The notes below the pieces were generated by a model, which worked only from the letters and a program-made list of their open reading frames with translations, did not search any database and was not told the DNA's origin. From Planctomycetota bacterium (GTDB taxonomy: Bacteria > Planctomycetota > Phycisphaerae > Phycisphaerales > SM1A02): a stretch of DNA of 37,685 bases. The position numbers were made by a program, and so were the translations under genes. The DNA lies in NCBI GenBank assembly GCA_016873115.1, contig VGYB01000019.1, positions 1 to 37,685 of the forward strand, read 5' to 3'. Positions 29,052 through 37,251 of the stretch are shown here, piece after piece (the stretch's first letter is position 1; each line of letters opens with the position of its first letter).

Positions 29052-30591
29052 CCGACGGCAGCACCTGCGGCACGATCATCGTGTGGCCTTCGTCATCGTG
29101 CACCGTGCACTCGATGCGCGCACCACCATCCCGGAGTGACCGTGCGGAGGCCGAGATTCGATTGGCCTGCATCAGCGGATCGAGCGCACCCAACTCGACG
29201 CGGACGGGCGGCAGACCCCGGATCGCCGCCTCATCCATCGCCGTTCCACCCGCGCCGGGTACGCCGCCAAAGCCACCCCAACCGGCCAGCAGCGCCGCCC
29301 GCGCGATCGCCGCAGGCCGCGCACGAACGATCGAACCCGTTGCCGCTGCACCCATGCTGTGGCCGACGACCGAGACCCGCTCACGATCGATGCCCCACTC
29401 GCCAGCCAATTGGTCGACGAGACCATCGAAGAGCAAGGGGCTGGTCGCGAAGACCGTCGTGTTGGGCGCCACCACCACACAGCCGAGCCGGTCGGCCTGG
29501 CGAACGATCTCCCCTTGGCCGTATGCGGAGAAGAACATGCACTCATCGCCTCCGGCGCCATGCAGCGCGATCACCAACGGCGGGCTGGACCCGGCGCGCA
29601 CCGAATCGGGCACGACGATCCGGCACGGCAGCTTCACGCCACCGACATCGATCGTGCGCCACTGGTCGCCCCTGCGGCCGACGAACAGCGGCTCGCCCCG
29701 TTCGAGTCGGGCAAGGTCCTCGCTCACCATCGACCAGATGCGCGCCTGGTCCATGACGAGCTGGATCGTGCGACGCGGCGATGCCTCGTTGGTCAGGAGC
29801 GCTGCGCGAGCGCGGGCTTCGGCAAGGTCGGCGGTCGAGGCACGACCGGCAGCGGCGGCGAGCTCGATCGCACGCTCGGCCTTCTGACGGAGTTCATCCG
29901 GCGAGGCCTCGGTCACGGGAACCGTCCGAATCCGCATCCAGTCGCTCGCCGGGTCCTTGGCCACACGGACATCGATGGTGCGTGCTCCCGCATCCTCCCC
30001 CATCGCGAGCGTGACGGTGGCGGGCGGCGTGACCTCGAACGGCTGGCCGCCGCCGGCTCGCAGGGTGATCGGCGCACCGAGGCCGGACCGTGGCAGCGCC
30101 ACCGACACGGCCATCGAGGCCTCGTCGGCGTGCAGCGCACTGCGCACAGGGGCAACGCGCACCTGCATCGCACGAAGCAGATCAGCACGCTCGTCAGGGT
30201 CCTGCACACCCAGCACATCGAGCGTGAGTGCATCCAGCGCATCGACGGCCTCGACGAGCCGGTTCTGGAAGAAGAGCAGCGTGAGCGAATCGAACCGGCG
30301 GTTGAGTTCTGCGCGCGGCATCCCTGCGGGGCGATCGGCCATGGCAGCCTCCAGCCGCTGGAATGCTGCAGCCAGTTCCGCCTTGCTGACGGTGGGTCTG
30401 GCGGCAGTCGGCGCGCCCTTCGTTGGCCTTGGTGCCTTCGTCGTGGGCACGGGCTCCTGGTTCGGCGACGACGGCGTGGCCGGAGTCGCCCGCACGAGGG
30501 CCGAAGACTGCCCCGCAAGCGCACTGAGCACGCTCACCAGGCTCGCGCAGCACGCGCAGGCCAGAACTCCGGTCCGACGCGTGCCGCTCAT
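28978..30591 (-). CDS. Secreted alpha/beta hydrolase (esterase/PHB depolymerase-like)
   Basis: A 537-residue protein with a Cys-containing signal peptide (about 1-30), a Pro/Thr-rich linker and a helical N-terminal region (about 65-300) without recognised domain. The C-terminal half is an alpha/beta hydrolase: HGAGGDECMFFSAYG near 343 (oxyanion region), nucleophile Ser in VVGHSMGAAATG near 410, acid Asp in ELGALDPLM near 485 and His in DDEGHTM near 513. The GAGGDE segment resembles LpqC/PHB-depolymerase-type esterases. Substrate is unknown. It starts in an ATGA overlap with the photolyase gene, and its last 24 codons lie opposite the end of the MFS gene. Confidence 0.8.
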   Translation of the reverse strand: MSGTRRTGVLACACCASLVSVLSALAGQSSALVRATPATPSSPNQEPVPTTKAPRPTKGAPTAARPTVSKAELAAAFQRLEAAMADRPAGMPRAELNRRFDSLTLLFFQNRLVEAVDALDALTLDVLGVQDPDERADLLRAMQVRVAPVRSALHADEASMAVSVALPRSGLGAPITLRAGGGQPFEVTPPATVTLAMGEDAGARTIDVRVAKDPASDWMRIRTVPVTEASPDELRQKAERAIELAAAAGRASTADLAEARARAALLTNEASPRRTIQLVMDQARIWSMVSEDLARLERGEPLFVGRRGDQWRTIDVGGVKLPCRIVVPDSVRAGSSPPLVIALHGAGGDECMFFSAYGQGEIVRQADRLGCVVVAPNTTVFATSPLLFDGLVDQLAGEWGIDRERVSVVGHSMGAAATGSIVRARPAAIARAALLAGWGGFGGVPGAGGTAMDEAAIRGLPPVRVELGALDPLMQANRISASARSLRDGGARIECTVHDDEGHTMIVPQVLPSVMEWLVAPRAATPALPAAIPAPAR

Positions 30592-32030
30592 GAGGCTGGT
30601 GCCTTGATCGCCGAGAGTGCCCGGAGTGCTGCATCACGCGCTGTCGCGTGATCGACGATGGGCCGTGGATACGACTGTCCAAGCACCACCCCCGCTGCGG
30701 CGAGAACGGTCGTGGGCGCTTCCCATGGCTTGTGGATCAGCGTGCTGGGCACGCGTGCGAGCTCCGGCACCCAACGCCGGACATATGTCCCGTCTGCATC
30801 GAACGTCTCGCCCTGCAGGACAGGATTGAAGATCCGGAAGTACGGCGCAGCGTCTGCGCCGCACCCGGCACTCCATTGCCAGCCAAGCGAGTTGCTGGAC
30901 AGGTCCGCATCGAGCAAGGTGTCCCAGAACCAGTCGGCGCCGTGGCGCCAGTGCTGCCTCAGGTGCTTGACGAGGAAGGAGCTCACGACCATGCGGATGC
31001 GGTTGTGCATCGTGCCAGTCGACCAGAGTTCGCGCATGCCTGCATCGACGATCGGATAGCCCGTCTGCCCGCCCTGCCAGCGCCGCAGCGCCTCGCGGTC
31101 ATCGCTCCACGGGAACGCCTCGAAGGCAGGTTGCAGCGGTCGCTCCGCGGTGTGCGGGAAGTTGGCCAGCACATGGTGGGCGAAGTCCCTCCAGAGCACT
31201 TCCGCCTCAAACTTGTCGATCGCCCCACGCCACGCCGGATGCGCGTTCGCAGCACGCTCGGCTTCGTGCCAGATCCGGCGCGGCGAGAGTTCACCTGCGT
31301 GCAGGTGCGGACTCAAGCGGCTGGCTGCGGGGTGCCCGGGGAAATCCCGCCCGTCGGCGTACCCCGAGACCGGGCCAGCGAGGAAGGCCTTCAGCCGCTC
31401 CTTCGCCCCAGCCTCGCCCGGGGTCCAGAGCGCATGGAATGCTCCATCCCACGCCTTCGACGGCTCCAACCCGAGCGACTCGACCGATGCACTGGTGAGC
31501 GCGCCCGTGAACCATGGCACCGTGCGCGGAGCGCCGCGTGCTGCGTCGAGCTGGCACTTGGCACGCCAGGCCCTCGAGAACGGCGTGTAGACCTTGTACG
31601 GCACGCCGGTCCCCGTGCGAAGCGACCATGGGTCGTGGAGCAGCGAACCGTTCGCCCAGACGACCCCAACACCGGCGCCTGCGAGCTCACGCTGTGCCGC
31701 TGCGTTCGCCTCGCGCGCCTCAGGCTCAAACCGTTCATTGGCGTAGACGGTGTCAGCGCCAGACTCCTTGGCGACCGCGCGAAGCACGGCGGCCCGGGGT
31801 CCCGAGCGGATCACGAGCCGACCACCGAGCGAGCGCAGCGAGGCATCGAGCGCACCGAGAGAGCGATGCAGCCACCAGCGGCTCGCACCGCCGGGGGACC
31901 AGGCACCCTCACCCTCGGGATCCCAGATGTAGAGCGCCACGACCGGTTCGCCGCGCTCGCACGCAGCCCGCCAAGAGGGCTGATCGTCCAACCGGAGATC
32001 GTTCGAGAACCAGCAGATCGATGGTGCCAT
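30588..32030 (-). CDS. phrB: Class I deoxyribodipyrimidine photolyase
   Basis: A 480-residue light-driven DNA repair enzyme that splits cyclobutane pyrimidine dimers. The N-terminal Rossmann domain for the antenna cofactor begins ICWFSNDLRLDDQPSW. The FAD domain has the motif GYPIVDAGMRELWSTGTMHNR near 345-365, SSFLVKHL, and WFWDTLLDADLSSNSLGWQW near 385-405, containing the conserved Asp and Asn contacts to flavin. The stop of the epimerase gene overlaps the start (TGATG); a GTG one codon earlier is possible. It belongs to a minus-strand unit with the epimerase fusion and the hydrolase, downstream of a second, decayed photolyase. Confidence 0.94.
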   Translation of the reverse strand: MAPSICWFSNDLRLDDQPSWRAACERGEPVVALYIWDPEGEGAWSPGGASRWWLHRSLGALDASLRSLGGRLVIRSGPRAAVLRAVAKESGADTVYANERFEPEAREANAAAQRELAGAGVGVVWANGSLLHDPWSLRTGTGVPYKVYTPFSRAWRAKCQLDAARGAPRTVPWFTGALTSASVESLGLEPSKAWDGAFHALWTPGEAGAKERLKAFLAGPVSGYADGRDFPGHPAASRLSPHLHAGELSPRRIWHEAERAANAHPAWRGAIDKFEAEVLWRDFAHHVLANFPHTAERPLQPAFEAFPWSDDREALRRWQGGQTGYPIVDAGMRELWSTGTMHNRIRMVVSSFLVKHLRQHWRHGADWFWDTLLDADLSSNSLGWQWSAGCGADAAPYFRIFNPVLQGETFDADGTYVRRWVPELARVPSTLIHKPWEAPTTVLAAAGVVLGQSYPRPIVDHATARDAALRALSAIKAPAS

Positions 32031-33403
32031 CACGCGCGTCCGAGTTCGAAGTCAAGGGCATCCTGCACCAGCGGAAAGTCCCAGCGGAAGCCTAGTTCGC
32101 TCGCGCGGGTGGGGCGAGCGAACTGCCCACGCAGGAGCAATGACTCGCCCATCTCGCCGAACAGCATGCGCACGACGGCGGCCGGCATGGGGGCAATCGC
32201 CGGTCGACGCAGGCTGCGACCGAGTGCCTTGGCGAAGTTCCGCTGCTCGACCGACTCGGGAGCCACGGCATTCACCGGTCCCGACCAACGGTCATCGATG
32301 ATGGCCGTGGCGATCATGCCCAGGAGGTCATCGGACGCGATCCACGAGATGCCCTGCCGACCCGATCCAATCGGCCCGCCGGCGCCGAAGAGGAACGGCG
32401 TCCGCATCTTCGCCACCGCACCGCCCGCAGCCGTGACCACCATGCCCGCTCGCAGGAAGACCACGCGGATGCCCGCGTCGATCGCAGGTTGCGCCGCAGC
32501 CTCCCAATCCCGCGCGAGCTGCGCGATGAAGTCATCGCCGGCTGCATCGCGCTCGTCCACCGTGCGACCGTGCTCGGTGCCGTAGATCCCGATGCCGCTC
32601 ATGCAGACGAGGACCTTCGGCTTGCGGTCCAGCCCAGCCAGCAGCGTGCAGAGGTTTCGCGTGGCCGCGATGCGGCTCTCGCGCAGGACCTCCTTGCGCA
32701 CGGGCGTCCATCGTTCGTCGGCCAGGTTCGCACCGGCCAGATGCACGATCGCATCAAGTGACTCGAAGGGCGCCGTGGCGACGCGCTCACCGCCTGGATT
32801 CCACTGGATCTCGCCGCGGCCGGCGCTGGCTGAGCCGCGAGTCAATCGCTTCACGCTCGTTCCGCCGGTGGTCAGGAATGCCTGCAGTTGCCGCCCGACC
32901 AGGCCACTCGAACCGGTGATGCCGACGGACATGCCGGCCAGGGCCGAGCACTCCATGTGCCGACGCAGGTCATTCGCGAGGCGCTGATGGCGGAAGCGGA
33001 ATGCACGCTCGAGATCGCCGCGGACGAGCCAGCCCCCCAGAAGCGACCCAAGGGGCGGCAGCGGGAATTCGTACTGGATGTCATCGGTGATCGCACTCGA
33101 TGCACCGCGCTCCTCGAACCGGTGCTCGTGACGCCAGCGACGGAATGGGCCTCGGACCTGGATGTCGACGAACCCCTTTGCCGGATCGACCTGCTCATGG
33201 CGCGCCACCCAACGGATCGGCAGCAGACCCTTGTGCAGGATGAACTCAGCCGTCGCGCCATCGACCATGGGCACGGGTGCCTTGACCACATCGACCTCTT
33301 CCCATGGTGGGAGCATGCGCTGCAGCGCACCTTCGCGCATGTGCCAGTGGGCGAGATCGCCCCGCGACGAGGGCATCGGGCTTGAGCGCGTGAATCGGCT
33401 CAT
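32030..33403 (-). CDS. SRPBCC domain - TIGR01777 epimerase fusion
   Basis: A 457-residue two-domain protein. Residues 1 to about 150 form a SRPBCC/START-like ligand-binding domain (LPIRWVARHEQVDP, GPFRRWRHEHRF, YEFPLPPLGSLLGGW). The remainder is an NAD-dependent short-chain epimerase of the TIGR01777/YfcH type: GITGSSGLVGRQL near 157-169, IVHLAGANLADERWT, MSGIGIYGTEHG, then the C-terminal DUF1731 region ending with RASELGFRWDFPLVQDALDF. Such fusions are common in bacteria carrying photolyase gene clusters. Substrate is unknown. Its ATG overlaps the TGA of the upstream photolyase remnant, and the next gene starts at its stop codon, so the whole row is translationally linked. Confidence 0.9.
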   Translation of the reverse strand: MSRFTRSSPMPSSRGDLAHWHMREGALQRMLPPWEEVDVVKAPVPMVDGATAEFILHKGLLPIRWVARHEQVDPAKGFVDIQVRGPFRRWRHEHRFEERGASSAITDDIQYEFPLPPLGSLLGGWLVRGDLERAFRFRHQRLANDLRRHMECSALAGMSVGITGSSGLVGRQLQAFLTTGGTSVKRLTRGSASAGRGEIQWNPGGERVATAPFESLDAIVHLAGANLADERWTPVRKEVLRESRIAATRNLCTLLAGLDRKPKVLVCMSGIGIYGTEHGRTVDERDAAGDDFIAQLARDWEAAAQPAIDAGIRVVFLRAGMVVTAAGGAVAKMRTPFLFGAGGPIGSGRQGISWIASDDLLGMIATAIIDDRWSGPVNAVAPESVEQRNFAKALGRSLRRPAIAPMPAAVVRMLFGEMGESLLLRGQFARPTRASELGFRWDFPLVQDALDFELGRA

Positions 33404-33673
33404 CGCAGGGACTCCACGGTGACGGGCTTGCCGTGGACCAGGAGTTCACGAACGATCGAGGCCACGCGCTGGTCGTCGCGACGCTGATCGGCGAAACCCT
33501 TCCGCACGCTGCCCATGAGGAGGCTCATGCGGGGATTGTCCCCCCAAGGACGCCTTGTGGCGACCCAAGAAAGCCCAGTACATCGGCGTGATCGGGCAGG
33601 TCGTGCCCGGGGTGAAGCAGCACCCATCGCAGAACTCGCCCATCGTGCGGATGGAGGCGCTTGCGCACGCGCC
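33400..33673 (-). pseudogene. Frameshifted C-terminal remnant of an iron-sulfur (PhrB-type) photolyase
   Basis: Two minus-strand frames join into one homologous tail. The first reads ASIRTMGEFCDGCCF, then TCPITPMYWAFLGRHKASLG; the second continues DNPRMSLLMGSVRKGF to a TGA at 33400-33402. The CxxC...CP pattern followed by YWxFL-x-RH and NPRM is the C-terminus of cryptochrome/photolyase-related FeS-BCP proteins, where these Cys hold a 4Fe-4S cluster. The break is at a run of six G (minus strand; 33545-33540); five would restore the frame. Upstream, the frame is open only to a TGA at 33748-33746, and the roughly 400 residues of the antenna and FAD domains are missing. Its stop overlaps the epimerase start as ATGA, as in an intact operon. 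Confidence 0.7.
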
Positions 33674-33829
33674 GTGCGGGCCACTCGAGCAGCCTGGGCA
33701 GCCATGCTCCCGCCGGGCGAAGTGGCCCGGCCGGTGCGCCGTGTGTCATCCGCTGTGGGCCGCTTGCGAGGCATCGCTGTGGCTTCGTGGCCGACGCTCC
33801 GTGGATGCATCACGGCCCCCGTCGATCGC

Positions 33830-33842: not shown

Positions 33843-35381
33843 GTGCTGCGCACGCTCGCTCCCCTGCTCATCCTGGTCGCGACCATGGGCGCGACCGCGG
33901 ACGACGGGCTGTCCCGGCTGCGGGCTGCGGGCATCATGCGGTGGGGCTGCGACATCAGCGGCGCTGCGCCCTTCACCTTCCCGGATCCGTCCAATCCGGA
34001 CCGGATCATCGGCTTCGAAGTCGAGATCGCCGAGGAGCTCGCGCGTCGGCTCGGTGTGCGGGCCGAGCGCTTCAGTGCCGACTGGCTCGCCCTGATCGAT
34101 GCCCTCGAAGCCGACCGGTGCGACCTGCTCATCAATGGCTTCGAGGTGACGGCTGACCGCGAACGGGTGGTGGCCTTTTCGAAGCCGTACTTCCGCTACA
34201 CCCAGCAACTTGTGGTCCGGGCGGAGGACCGTGACCGCTTTGCATCGCTCACCGATCTCCAGGGCCACCCCGTCGCCGTGCTCAATGGTTCGGCCAGCAT
34301 CGACAGCCTGCGATCGGCCGGTGTGCCTGCATCGCTCATCGTCCAGTACGACGATTCGCTCGCGCCCTTCACGGAGACCGTGCTGGGCCGCGTCGATGCC
34401 TGCCTCCAGGAGTCGTTGATCGCACGCTTCTATGCAGGCCACGATCCCCGACTCACCCTCGTCGATGCGACATTCGATCCGGGCGTCTACGCGGTCATCG
34501 TGCGCAAGCATGATGCAGCGCTCCTGGCCAGTGTCAACGCCGCACTCGAGGCCATGCAGGCCGACGGCACGCTGGGCCGGATCCTCCAGCGCTGGGGACT
34601 CTGGGATGACGCGCAGCGCGAGCTCGGCACGGATCGAGGGCCCACGGTCGCCACGATTCCCGAAGCGACCGGTGCGCCGCAGGCGGATGCCCTGCCGTGG
34701 GCGCCCGTCCTCTGGTCCCTCGCGCGAGCCGCCGTGATGACGGCATTCCTGACCATCGTCAGCATGCCGATCGCGACCTTCCTGGGCCTGCTGCTGGCCA
34801 TCACGATCCTGCATGGCCCGAAGCCCCTGAGCCGGCTCTGCCGTGGCTATGTGCTCGTCATGCGCGGAACGCCGCTCTTGGTGCAGATCTTCCTGCTGTA
34901 TTACTCGCTGCCCGCGCTGGGCGCGTGGTTGGGCGTTCCCGAACTCCTGACCTGGAACAAGATCGTGGTGGGCATCGTCTGTCTCGCGGCCAACTACGCC
35001 GCCTACGAAGCCGAGATCCACCGCGCTGCGCTGCAGGCGATCCCCCGCTCGCAGTGGGATGCGGCGCGTGCGCTGGGATTCACGCGTTGGCAGACGCTGC
35101 GATGCATCGTCGTACCGCAGAGCTGGCGACTGTCACTGCCGGCGATCATCAACGACCTCAACAGCCTCATCAAGGATTCGAGCCTGGTCAGCATGATCGG
35201 CGTGCAGGAGTTGCTCGCGGTGGCGCTTGGGATCGGCAAGGCCAGTTTCGCCGTACCGGCAATGCTCGTCGCAGCGGCCGCGTTCTATCTCGTGCTCAGC
35301 CTTGTGGCGGATGGATTCGGACGGTCGCTCGAGCATCGAGCCCGCACCGTGCGCACGCCAAGGGAGGCCACACCCAGATGA
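33843..35381 (+). CDS. Polar amino-acid ABC importer, fused binding protein and permease
   Basis: A 512-residue chain from a GTG start (MLRTLAPLLIL), supported by TAGCAT 7 nt upstream; the frame is open further upstream but without a coding look. A signal peptide (about 1-20) leads to a family-3 solute-binding domain (about 22-250: MRWGCDISGAAPFTF, IIGFEVEIAEELARRLG, DLLINGFEVTADRERVVAFS, PYFRYTQQLVV). It is joined to a His/Glu/Gln-type permease domain (about 285-505) with RGTPLLVQIFLLYYSLP and the ATPase-docking EAA loop EIHRAALQAIPRSQWDAARALG. Such GlnH-GlnP fusions tether the receptor to the membrane. Glutamine or another polar amino acid is the likely substrate class. The ATPase gene follows with a 4-nt overlap. 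Confidence 0.9.
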   Translation: MLRTLAPLLILVATMGATADDGLSRLRAAGIMRWGCDISGAAPFTFPDPSNPDRIIGFEVEIAEELARRLGVRAERFSADWLALIDALEADRCDLLINGFEVTADRERVVAFSKPYFRYTQQLVVRAEDRDRFASLTDLQGHPVAVLNGSASIDSLRSAGVPASLIVQYDDSLAPFTETVLGRVDACLQESLIARFYAGHDPRLTLVDATFDPGVYAVIVRKHDAALLASVNAALEAMQADGTLGRILQRWGLWDDAQRELGTDRGPTVATIPEATGAPQADALPWAPVLWSLARAAVMTAFLTIVSMPIATFLGLLLAITILHGPKPLSRLCRGYVLVMRGTPLLVQIFLLYYSLPALGAWLGVPELLTWNKIVVGIVCLAANYAAYEAEIHRAALQAIPRSQWDAARALGFTRWQTLRCIVVPQSWRLSLPAIINDLNSLIKDSSLVSMIGVQELLAVALGIGKASFAVPAMLVAAAAFYLVLSLVADGFGRSLEHRARTVRTPREATPR

Positions 35382-36121
35382 CCACGCCTGCCCTGGAAAC
35401 CCACCGACTGTGCAAGGCCTGGCCGCGCACCGGCGCTGTGCTCACCGACTGCTCGATGCGCGTCGAACGCCGCACCGTGCATGCCCTGATCGGTGCCAGC
35501 GGCAGCGGCAAGAGCACCCTGCTGCGGTGCCTTGGCCTGCTCGAGCCGCTTGATGCGGGGTCGATCATGGTCGACGGCGTGCTGGCGGTCGATGGACAGG
35601 TCCTCACCGTCAGCCAGCACATCCGCCGCTCGGTCGGCATGGTGTTCCAGGAACCAAGCCTGTTCGGGCACCTCACGGCGCTGGCCAATGTCACGCTCGC
35701 CCCGCAGCGGGTCCTCGGCCTCGAACCCGATGCCGCCCGAGAGCGCGCCCGAAGCGCGCTTGACCGCGTGCATGCGCTCCACCTGGCCGACCGACACCCG
35801 GATGAACTCTCCGGCGGTGAGCGCCAGCGCGTGGCGATCGCCCGGTCGCTTGCCATGGAGCCCACCGTCCTGCTCTGCGACGAACCCACCTCGGCCCTTG
35901 ATCCGCTGCTGACCCGGGAGGTCACGGCCGTCCTGCGCGAACTGGCGCTCGATGCCGGCACCACCATGGTGGTCGCGACCCATGACATGGAGTTCGTGGC
36001 GGCCACCGCAGATTCCGTCGACTTCCTGCATGCCGGGCGCATCAGCGTTTCAGGCACCGCGGATGTGCTCTCGACGCCCGGGCTCGATGACGAGCTGGAC
36101 CGATTCCTGAAACGATCCTGA
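35378..36121 (+). CDS. glnQ: Polar amino-acid ABC importer ATPase (GlnQ-like)
   Basis: A 247-residue ATPase; ATG in an ATGA overlap with the permease gene, with AGGGAGG about 10 nt upstream. Walker A is IGASGSGKSTLLRCLGLLE near 38-56, Q-loop MVFQEPSLFGHLTALANV, signature LSGGERQRVAIARSLAMEP near 148, Walker B LLCDEPTSALDPLL near 167, switch His in VATHDMEFVAA. The CLGLLEPLDAGSI and THDMEFVA segments are typical of the glutamine/arginine importer ATPases. It powers the fused transporter encoded just before. The symbol marks the family, not a proven substrate. Confidence 0.9.
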   Translation: MTTPALETHRLCKAWPRTGAVLTDCSMRVERRTVHALIGASGSGKSTLLRCLGLLEPLDAGSIMVDGVLAVDGQVLTVSQHIRRSVGMVFQEPSLFGHLTALANVTLAPQRVLGLEPDAARERARSALDRVHALHLADRHPDELSGGERQRVAIARSLAMEPTVLLCDEPTSALDPLLTREVTAVLRELALDAGTTMVVATHDMEFVAATADSVDFLHAGRISVSGTADVLSTPGLDDELDRFLKRS

Positions 36122-36159: not shown

Positions 36160-37251
36160 ATGGCCGTCACGAATGAATCGACATCCGGCGCGACCCCCGC
36201 ATGCACCCTCTGCTCACGCCTGGGCTTTGTGGTGACCCGCCTCGCCGTTCCCGCATGGATCACCGCCGGAGCCCTCGCCAAGCTCCTGGAGAACGACCCG
36301 CGCAACCTGCCCAAGCCGATCTTCGACCTTGTGCTGTCCTTGGATGGCACCTTCGGTCTCCAGGGCGTGGCGTGGATGGACTTCGCGCTTCGCTCGATCT
36401 GCGGCACCGAGTTCGTCATCGCTGCCATGATCCTGTGCATGCCGCGCGTTGCGCGTCCGCTGGCTCTGGCGGTGCTGACGCTCTTCTGCGTCATCCTGCT
36501 CTGGCTGATCGGCACGGGATGGGCGAAGGATGGGTTCGAGGCCGTCCTCAAGGGTTCCTGCGGATGCTTCGGCAAGTCGGGCATGAATCCCCTGTACATG
36601 CTGATGATCGACGGTGCATTGCTGGGCGGCGTGCTGCGTGCACGCAAGGCCTGCGGGTGCAGCACGCGTTCGTGCATCGCCGGTGGAGGCCCCGCTGCGA
36701 TCGTGGCCGCCGTGGGCATTGCGGTTGCCTTCGGCATGCCGGCTCCTCCGGTGCAGTTGGAGGATCCCACAGCCAACACCCCAACGCCGCCGGATGTCAC
36801 GCCAACGGTGCCCCCGACAGCGTGGCCAGCGCGTCCAAGCCAGGTGCAGCCCTACTACCTGCCCGACTTCGCGACCTGGGTCGGCAAGCCGCTCGCCTCG
36901 CAGCCCGAGATGGCCCTGCTCGATGCGCCCCCACCGGCCACGATCAGCAGCGGCACCTGGATCGTGATGCTGTACCGGGCCGACTGCGAGCACTGCCATG
37001 AGGTGCTCGAGGCCCATTTCGTGGGCTCGCTCAAGCGCCCGGCACTGCTCATCGGCATTCCCGATCACGACCCTGCCAACGAGCAGCCCATGCCGTGCAC
37101 CGAGTGCACGATCCGCACATTCCTCAAGGGCCCCAACTATGTGGTCCAGACCCCAGTCGTGATGCGCATGAAGGATGGGGTCGTCGAGGCCGTCTGCACC
37201 GACCCCGAGGATGACGGGAGCCTGGCCGAGGTCCTGGAGGGTGGATCGTGA
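36160..37251 (+). CDS. MauE/DoxX-like membrane domain fused to a thioredoxin-like domain
   Basis: A 363-residue protein. The N-terminal half has four or five hydrophobic helices (about 22-45, 72-92, 100-118, 144-158, 170-190) with the GSCGCFG motif near 127-133 that marks MauE-type proteins, integral redox partners in disulfide formation. A Pro/Thr-rich linker (about 197-230) leads to a thioredoxin-like domain with active-site pair CEHC at 276-279 in VMLYRADCEHCHE, and a further CTEC near 314. The arrangement suggests a membrane electron carrier wired to its own extracytoplasmic thiol-disulfide domain, analogous to VKOR-thioredoxin fusions. The next gene starts in a GTGA overlap. Confidence 0.8.
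   Translation: MAVTNESTSGATPACTLCSRLGFVVTRLAVPAWITAGALAKLLENDPRNLPKPIFDLVLSLDGTFGLQGVAWMDFALRSICGTEFVIAAMILCMPRVARPLALAVLTLFCVILLWLIGTGWAKDGFEAVLKGSCGCFGKSGMNPLYMLMIDGALLGGVLRARKACGCSTRSCIAGGGPAAIVAAVGIAVAFGMPAPPVQLEDPTANTPTPPDVTPTVPPTAWPARPSQVQPYYLPDFATWVGKPLASQPEMALLDAPPPATISSGTWIVMLYRADCEHCHEVLEAHFVGSLKRPALLIGIPDHDPANEQPMPCTECTIRTFLKGPNYVVQTPVVMRMKDGVVEAVCTDPEDDGSLAEVLEGGS

Follow-up and report, generated by a model that had tools for sequence, protein, structure and literature searches.

A putative shell of an FeS-BCP photolyase gene, hollowed out by an internal deletion, at the head of a planctomycete photorepair operon

The FeS-BCP or prokaryotic (6-4) photolyases, among them PhrB of Agrobacterium fabrum, CryB of Rhodobacter sphaeroides and CryPro, share a C-terminus recognisable by the motifs CxxC...CP, YWAFLGRH and NPRM. 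The sequence described here carries the same motifs, but differs from these enzymes in lacking about 456 codons and in having its Fe-S motif out of frame with the surviving start codon. With regard to gene arrangement, the part of PMC9649867 used here describes a two-photolyase operon of Synechococcus PCC 7335 in which two genes, one of them for a bifunctional CPD/(6-4)-like protein, follow each other with no intergenic space and the first contains an SD-like motif; the tight spacing and the SD-like motif recur at the present locus. In contrast to that operon, here an FeS-BCP gene and a class I photolyase gene flank a TIGR01777 epimerase gene, and the first gene is dead. The titles and abstract openings of the open-access literature on FeS-BCP photolyases, photolyase pseudogenes, reinitiation at overlaps and lake Phycisphaerae/rhodopsin yielded nothing on this locus.

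The window (the whole stretch of 37,685 nt that was analysed) comes from an assembly of 2.36 Mb in 87 contigs, 95.9% complete, which is a single record and, judging by contig count and completeness, of metagenome type. The earlier note on this DNA had ascribed the motifs named above to the C-terminus of a PhrB-type FeS-BCP, and this assignment was borne out. On the minus strand, positions 33643 to 33400 hold the C-terminal motifs in two frames that are split at a six-G run and end directly before the epimerase gene, MGEFCDGCCFTPGTTCPITPMYWAFLGRHKASLG in the first frame and NPRM...TVESLR in the second. When read through the run, the resulting 80 residues match CryB (E 1.1e-4), PhrB (E 0.001) and further FeS-BCP chains, and at 79-90% identity they match long open frames at the orthologous position in seven of the eight other genomes of the genus, the full-length copies that the earlier note had advised looking for in the closest genomes. 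The 80 residues gave no Pfam match above cut-off, and two of the overlapping ORFs at the remnant, scanned unaltered, gave none above the Pfam or NCBIfam cut-offs, a weak HTH_15 (E 0.05) being the only signal. The window copy lacks the equivalent of PhrB C350, the region of which is deleted; the other three Fe-S cysteines (C438, C441, C454) are legible, yet out of frame with the surviving start. The DPRP and FAD-binding domains are likewise missing: a full-length congener protein matches the window copy only through its residues 502-590. PF04244 (DPRP) had no match anywhere in the window's own assembly, and a search of all 2.36 Mb with the full-length congener protein recovered the two remnant pieces and found the missing part nowhere. 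We consider the feature, with a probability of about 0.9, to be the shell of an FeS-BCP photolyase gene (PhrB/CryB-type, probably (6-4)), the first in its operon, gutted by an internal deletion (Table 1). The enzyme lost here probably acted on (6-4) lesions, as suggested by the residues conserved in its relatives.

Table 1. Coordinates of the remnant and its neighbours (positions in the window)
Feature	Position	Strand	Remarks
Uninterrupted 124-codon ORF, native start to native stop	33400..33774	-	full extent of the feature
Surviving 5' end, native ATG and 39 codons (linker preceding the folded domain)	33658..33774	-	gapless colinearity with the G002 gene start; ATG kept in the six congeners aligned there
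Deletion junction	33657..33658	-	by comparison with G002, about 1,369 bp (3n+1) lost; position uncertain by about 12 bp; both flanks collinear with congeners
Fe-S region remnant (FCDGC...CPITPMYWAFLGRH)	33546..33657	-	out of frame with the surviving start codon
Six-G run (C on the plus strand)	33540..33545	-	TTGAGGGA in 7/7 congeners, TTGGGGGGA in the window; off-frame TGA gone, frame back to native
Native photolyase 3' end, in frame with the surviving start	33400..33539	-	SD-like GGAG; TGA overlaps the epimerase ATG
TIGR01777-family oxidoreductase (epimerase), DUF1731, N-terminal SRPBCC-like part (PF03364 just under cut-off)	32030..33403	-	intact, 457 aa
Class I CPD-type photolyase	30588..32033	-	intact; GTGA overlap with the epimerase gene; no other FAD_binding_7 match turned up in the assembly
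Amino-acid-type ABC transporter genes (fused binding protein-permease, ATPase), divergent	33843..36121	+	border the upstream region common to both; 33843 was chosen by us as the start

Alignment between the window and the congeners breaks off near 33667 and resumes near 33766, about 1.4 kb being absent in between; since both flanks are collinear with the congeners, this is not a contig-end effect. In the comparison with G002, the gene of which is split over two overlapping contigs with its start on the second (C213), 39 codons from the ATG at 33774 are colinear, followed by the deletion and then by the last 80-odd codons. The missing stretch took the antenna and FAD domains, including the fourth cysteine, and left the upstream DNA, the start codon, the 3' end and the ATGA overlap in place. 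The gene had been described in the earlier note as cut off at its 5' side and still ending in an ATGA overlap with the epimerase gene; the 3' end and the overlap are indeed present, but the 5' end survives as well, and the loss is internal. The best supported mechanism is that the first gene of the photorepair operon decayed through an internal deletion. A second deletion, through an internal RRVRKRL motif, was also considered and rejected: it relied on a 14-bp exact match to G003 only, and the stretch is better accounted for by its colinearity with G002.

The deletion opens a frame which in all seven congeners meets a TGA at TTGAGGGA. The window reads TTGGGGGGA at this place, with the stop gone and one base more, and as a result the frame from the native ATG runs on to the native TGA. 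The six-G run lies where the earlier note had placed a frameshift, but the change is not simply further damage: it removes the off-frame stop and brings the reading back to the native frame. With a run one G shorter, translation from the native ATG was computed to end at 33525, before the epimerase gene, so that five G would not give the intact small protein that the note had contemplated. Six of the seven congeners have another off-frame TGA 21 nt upstream; missing from G002 as well as from the window, it may have been lost before the decay.

In the congeners, the intact gene encodes, from a conserved start, a protein of about 580-590 residues, and that of G007 matches prokaryotic FeS-BCP/(6-4) chains over two long stretches covering most of its length (E to 1.8e-70). 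PhrB numbering was mapped by hand from alignments of the remnant and the G007 protein. On this numbering the equivalents of C350, C438, C441, C454, H366, Y424, Y430, W342 and W390 are kept in 7/7 congeners, and the positions of Y391 and Y437 hold F in each of the seven. What these residues do is described in the part of PMC4619345 drawn on here. The residues taken as the mark of a (6-4) enzyme, namely the four cysteines with the equivalents of H366, Y424 and Y430, were found in all seven proteins, and on these residues the congener copies are predicted to be (6-4) photolyases.

The stop of the FeS-BCP gene overlaps the epimerase start by four bases in all seven congeners carrying it (ATGA in six, GTGA in G001), the epimerase gene is 1,374 nt long in 9/9 genomes, and the class I photolyase gene starts inside the epimerase stop (GTGA) in each of the eight genomes that have it, the window's included. 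The order FeS-BCP, epimerase, class I photolyase was also seen at nine of 12 loci, selected by hand, from other genera of the family; at the remaining three, where the FeS-BCP gene is more distant, these neighbours are absent. The former two-photolyase operon proposed earlier is well supported. PF04244 was found in 66 of 151 sampled genomes of the family. The operon appears to be old, and its age together with the spread of PF04244 in the family means that the absence of the gene from the window's genome and from G005 is best read as loss. A TIGR01777 epimerase thus stands between two photolyases in several genera; no paper treating a photolyase and TIGR01777 together came up in one search of the open-access literature.

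The remnant is under relaxed amino-acid constraint, as would be expected of a pseudogene. Among changes private to the window (the window against the seven congeners, with G005 left out), the ratio of non-synonymous to synonymous was 12:4 in the remnant versus 22:49 in the epimerase gene (Fisher p=0.0016), and 10:2 in the remnant (p=0.0009) after removal of four changes at the junction. An earlier count that used G002 for polarisation found 11:4 for the remnant, 34:66 for the epimerase and 19:44 for the class I photolyase. The test is based on 16 changes in the remnant, and the counts are small yet in agreement.

Gene decay itself is of an ordinary, known kind, and the restored leader ORF is the sole unusual part. 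One possible, and tentative, explanation for it is that the second change was selected: the step from TTGAGGGA to TTGGGGGGA would have relieved polarity on the epimerase gene and on the only remaining photolyase, making the dead gene a candidate coupling leader. The internal deletion of about 1.37 kb hollowed out the photolyase gene while its start, 3' end and ATGA overlap stayed, and with the change at the G run the result is one open frame of 124 codons. The remaining ORF would have no photolyase function and would at most act as a translated leader bringing ribosomes to the epimerase gene, from which the second four-base overlap would pass them on to the last remaining photolyase. In this way the restored frame would keep termination-reinitiation at the ATGA, and hence the supply of the epimerase and of the last photolyase.

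Several observations are consistent with such a leader. The ORF is continuous and ends in an overlap with the next start; the off-frame TGA of 7/7 congeners, at which translation from the native start would have ended after the deletion some 140 nt short of the epimerase gene, is gone in the window; and the native stop is exactly where the new frame closes, a point that the five-G version would not reach. Moreover, the four-base overlaps are conserved at all seven photolyase-epimerase pairs and all eight epimerase-class I pairs. Termination-reinitiation at overlaps of this kind is documented, and coupling was strict in 13 of 14 gene pairs tested in H. volcanii and E. coli, according to the portion of PMC6728339 consulted. 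Against the proposal, frames cancel by chance in about one case in two or three by our estimate, and the loss of one stop by drift is not rare; the second off-frame TGA is also gone, but from G002 too, possibly before the decay. The 3' tail carries one private change in its last 89 nt, a level (one or none) matched by 9% of equal-size epimerase windows, and the idea of a protected tail, raised by an early count of no window changes in the last 91 nt, was abandoned once this stricter count proved not significant. The epimerase gene could also initiate from its own SD, and either of the two mutations may have come first. The restored leader ORF is intriguing, and may be due to chance or have no role at all. 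It is in our view doubtful that, after the death of the gene, selection acted on operon coupling and not on the protein, so that both ends stayed and a second mutation put them back in frame, the downstream genes, the last photolyase among them, needing incoming ribosomes. Should the restored ORF have been selected, it would show that translation of an operon can keep a dead gene in frame, a point open to direct test.

Both the deletion and the G run are known from one metagenome-type assembly, and could be features of a minor strain or of the assembly. Homopolymers are error-prone on some sequencing platforms, and the window holds just six homopolymers of at least this length, the G run included; a true run of five G is nevertheless very improbable, as a comparable six-C run (33033-33038) lies inside the epimerase gene, the length of which is constant in all nine genomes. 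Nor would five G rescue the gene, given the approximately 1.37 kb that are missing. Slightly more improbable still is that the deletion stems from a chimeric or minor-variant assembly of a population in which most cells have the intact gene: a single metagenome-type record would allow it, but the contig is continuous, it is collinear with the congeners on both sides of the junction, and the missing part did not turn up elsewhere in the assembly. A functional small Fe-S or DNA-binding protein under selection, to which the legible cysteine motif and the open ORF might point, is extremely improbable and was rejected, since the motif is out of the ORF's frame, the fourth cysteine and the FAD domain are gone, constraint is relaxed, and the short form, which the earlier note would have expected in relatives in that case, occurs in no same-genus relative and, among the 24 of 61 genomes with a match, in one other short frame (G041), at a contig end.

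The sister of the window's species appears to be G005. The two group with a support of 100 on gyrA+rpoB+epimerase DNA, and again with 100 on gyrA+rpoB with two outgroups (79 on codon positions 1+2); in IQ-TREE analyses G005 stood beside the window's genome weakly, with 52 on epimerase DNA and 43 on two proteins. G002 was considered as the sister on the basis of the epimerase alone (FastTree support 0.71) and set aside, the gyrA+rpoB trees favouring G005. Genome searches of G005 found neither a class I photolyase nor FAD_binding_7 nor PF04244, the read-through 80 residues had no match in it in the search of same-genus genomes, and its locus is without the ABC genes. Just before its epimerase gene G005 keeps a 65-nt scrap of the photolyase C-terminus, which scores 48-73 against the seven congeners (best of 100 shuffles 29-35) and gave a weak match with one stop in a protein search (E 0.002). 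The scrap (L049:9100-9262, contig C17 of G005) is in frame with the epimerase start (DWSFLSRVIASLRENPRGEQGAPHAM), is without the G run and, by eye, carries none of the window's private changes in that stretch. G005 appears to have lost both photolyases and to have kept a different scrap of the FeS-BCP gene.

The remnant is locally close to G002. At third positions, the difference between the window and G002 is 0.096 in the remnant and 0.322 in the epimerase gene (a ratio of 0.30, lower than for any other of the 28 pairs), and 10 of the 251 sites from 33400 to 33650 are common to the window and G002 alone. Past recombination with a G002-like lineage is likely, and is the simplest reason for this closeness. 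With 253 nt evolving freely at the epimerase silent rate since the split from G005, 35-39 changes would be expected and 12 were seen; dating by the epimerase clock was dropped, however, because the closeness to G002 makes the clock doubtful. As the G002 copy is intact, the death of the window copy most likely followed its separation from that of G002. The loss in the window is thus most likely recent and separate from that in G005, on a dating that is relative and rough. Of the dated loss of (6-4)-type repair claimed in the earlier note, the loss is well supported, its (6-4) character is predicted from conserved residues, and the date holds in these relative terms only.

Other light-related genes follow a similar distribution. 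Rhodopsin (PF01036) was found in six of the nine genomes of the genus (G000-G008), and was not detected in the window's genome (96% complete), in G005 (95%) or in G001 (74% complete, so that its absence there means little); it is undetected in the two species without an FeS-BCP gene and present in six of the other seven. FAD_binding_7 matches number one in the window's genome (the class I enzyme), none in G005 and two to four, some of them fragments, in each of the other seven. Of the 151 genomes in the family sample, 32 had both rhodopsin and PF04244, five rhodopsin only, 34 PF04244 only and 80 neither (Fisher odds ratio 15, kinship ignored); this co-occurrence was counted by hand and assumes that both searches drew the same genomes. 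The titles of congener records name one pond, one surface sample and one Loclat, which we take to be a lake, and the window's planctomycete is probably also from fresh water.

Photolyase and proteorhodopsin content differs between close freshwater relatives, which the authors of PMC9239080 tie, in the part used here, to depth or water clarity, and the excerpt of PMC11561045 used likewise links freshwater photolyase content to depth and clarity. As in the freshwater ecotypes of PMC9239080, light-gene content varies here among close relatives; in the present planctomycete the loss is caught in the sequence itself. The simplest reading of the gene content suggests a darker niche with less light exposure for the window's species and G005. 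The lineage would seem to be losing light-related genes, and (6-4) photorepair by this enzyme would be gone. The window may be regarded as an intermediate step of light-gene loss within one genus, with rhodopsin and the extra photolyase-family genes not found in its genome, the FeS-BCP gene hollowed out and the class I photolyase intact; the sister species lacks the class I photolyase too.

Some observations on neighbouring and related genes were also made. A second photolyase-family gene of the congeners (a frame of about 498 aa) has one internal stop both in G007 (G007:C8:4072-5412) and in G006 (G006:C266:10074-11390), and may belong to another photolyase-related family or may also be decaying. 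The single ORF at 33843-35381 bears both a periplasmic binding protein domain (PF00497) and a permease domain (PF00528) of an amino-acid-type ABC transporter. In the genus, the ABC transporter pair separates the photolyase operon from the gene at 36160-37251; at the nine operon loci of other genera, a homologue of the latter adjoins the photolyase gene directly, in divergent orientation.
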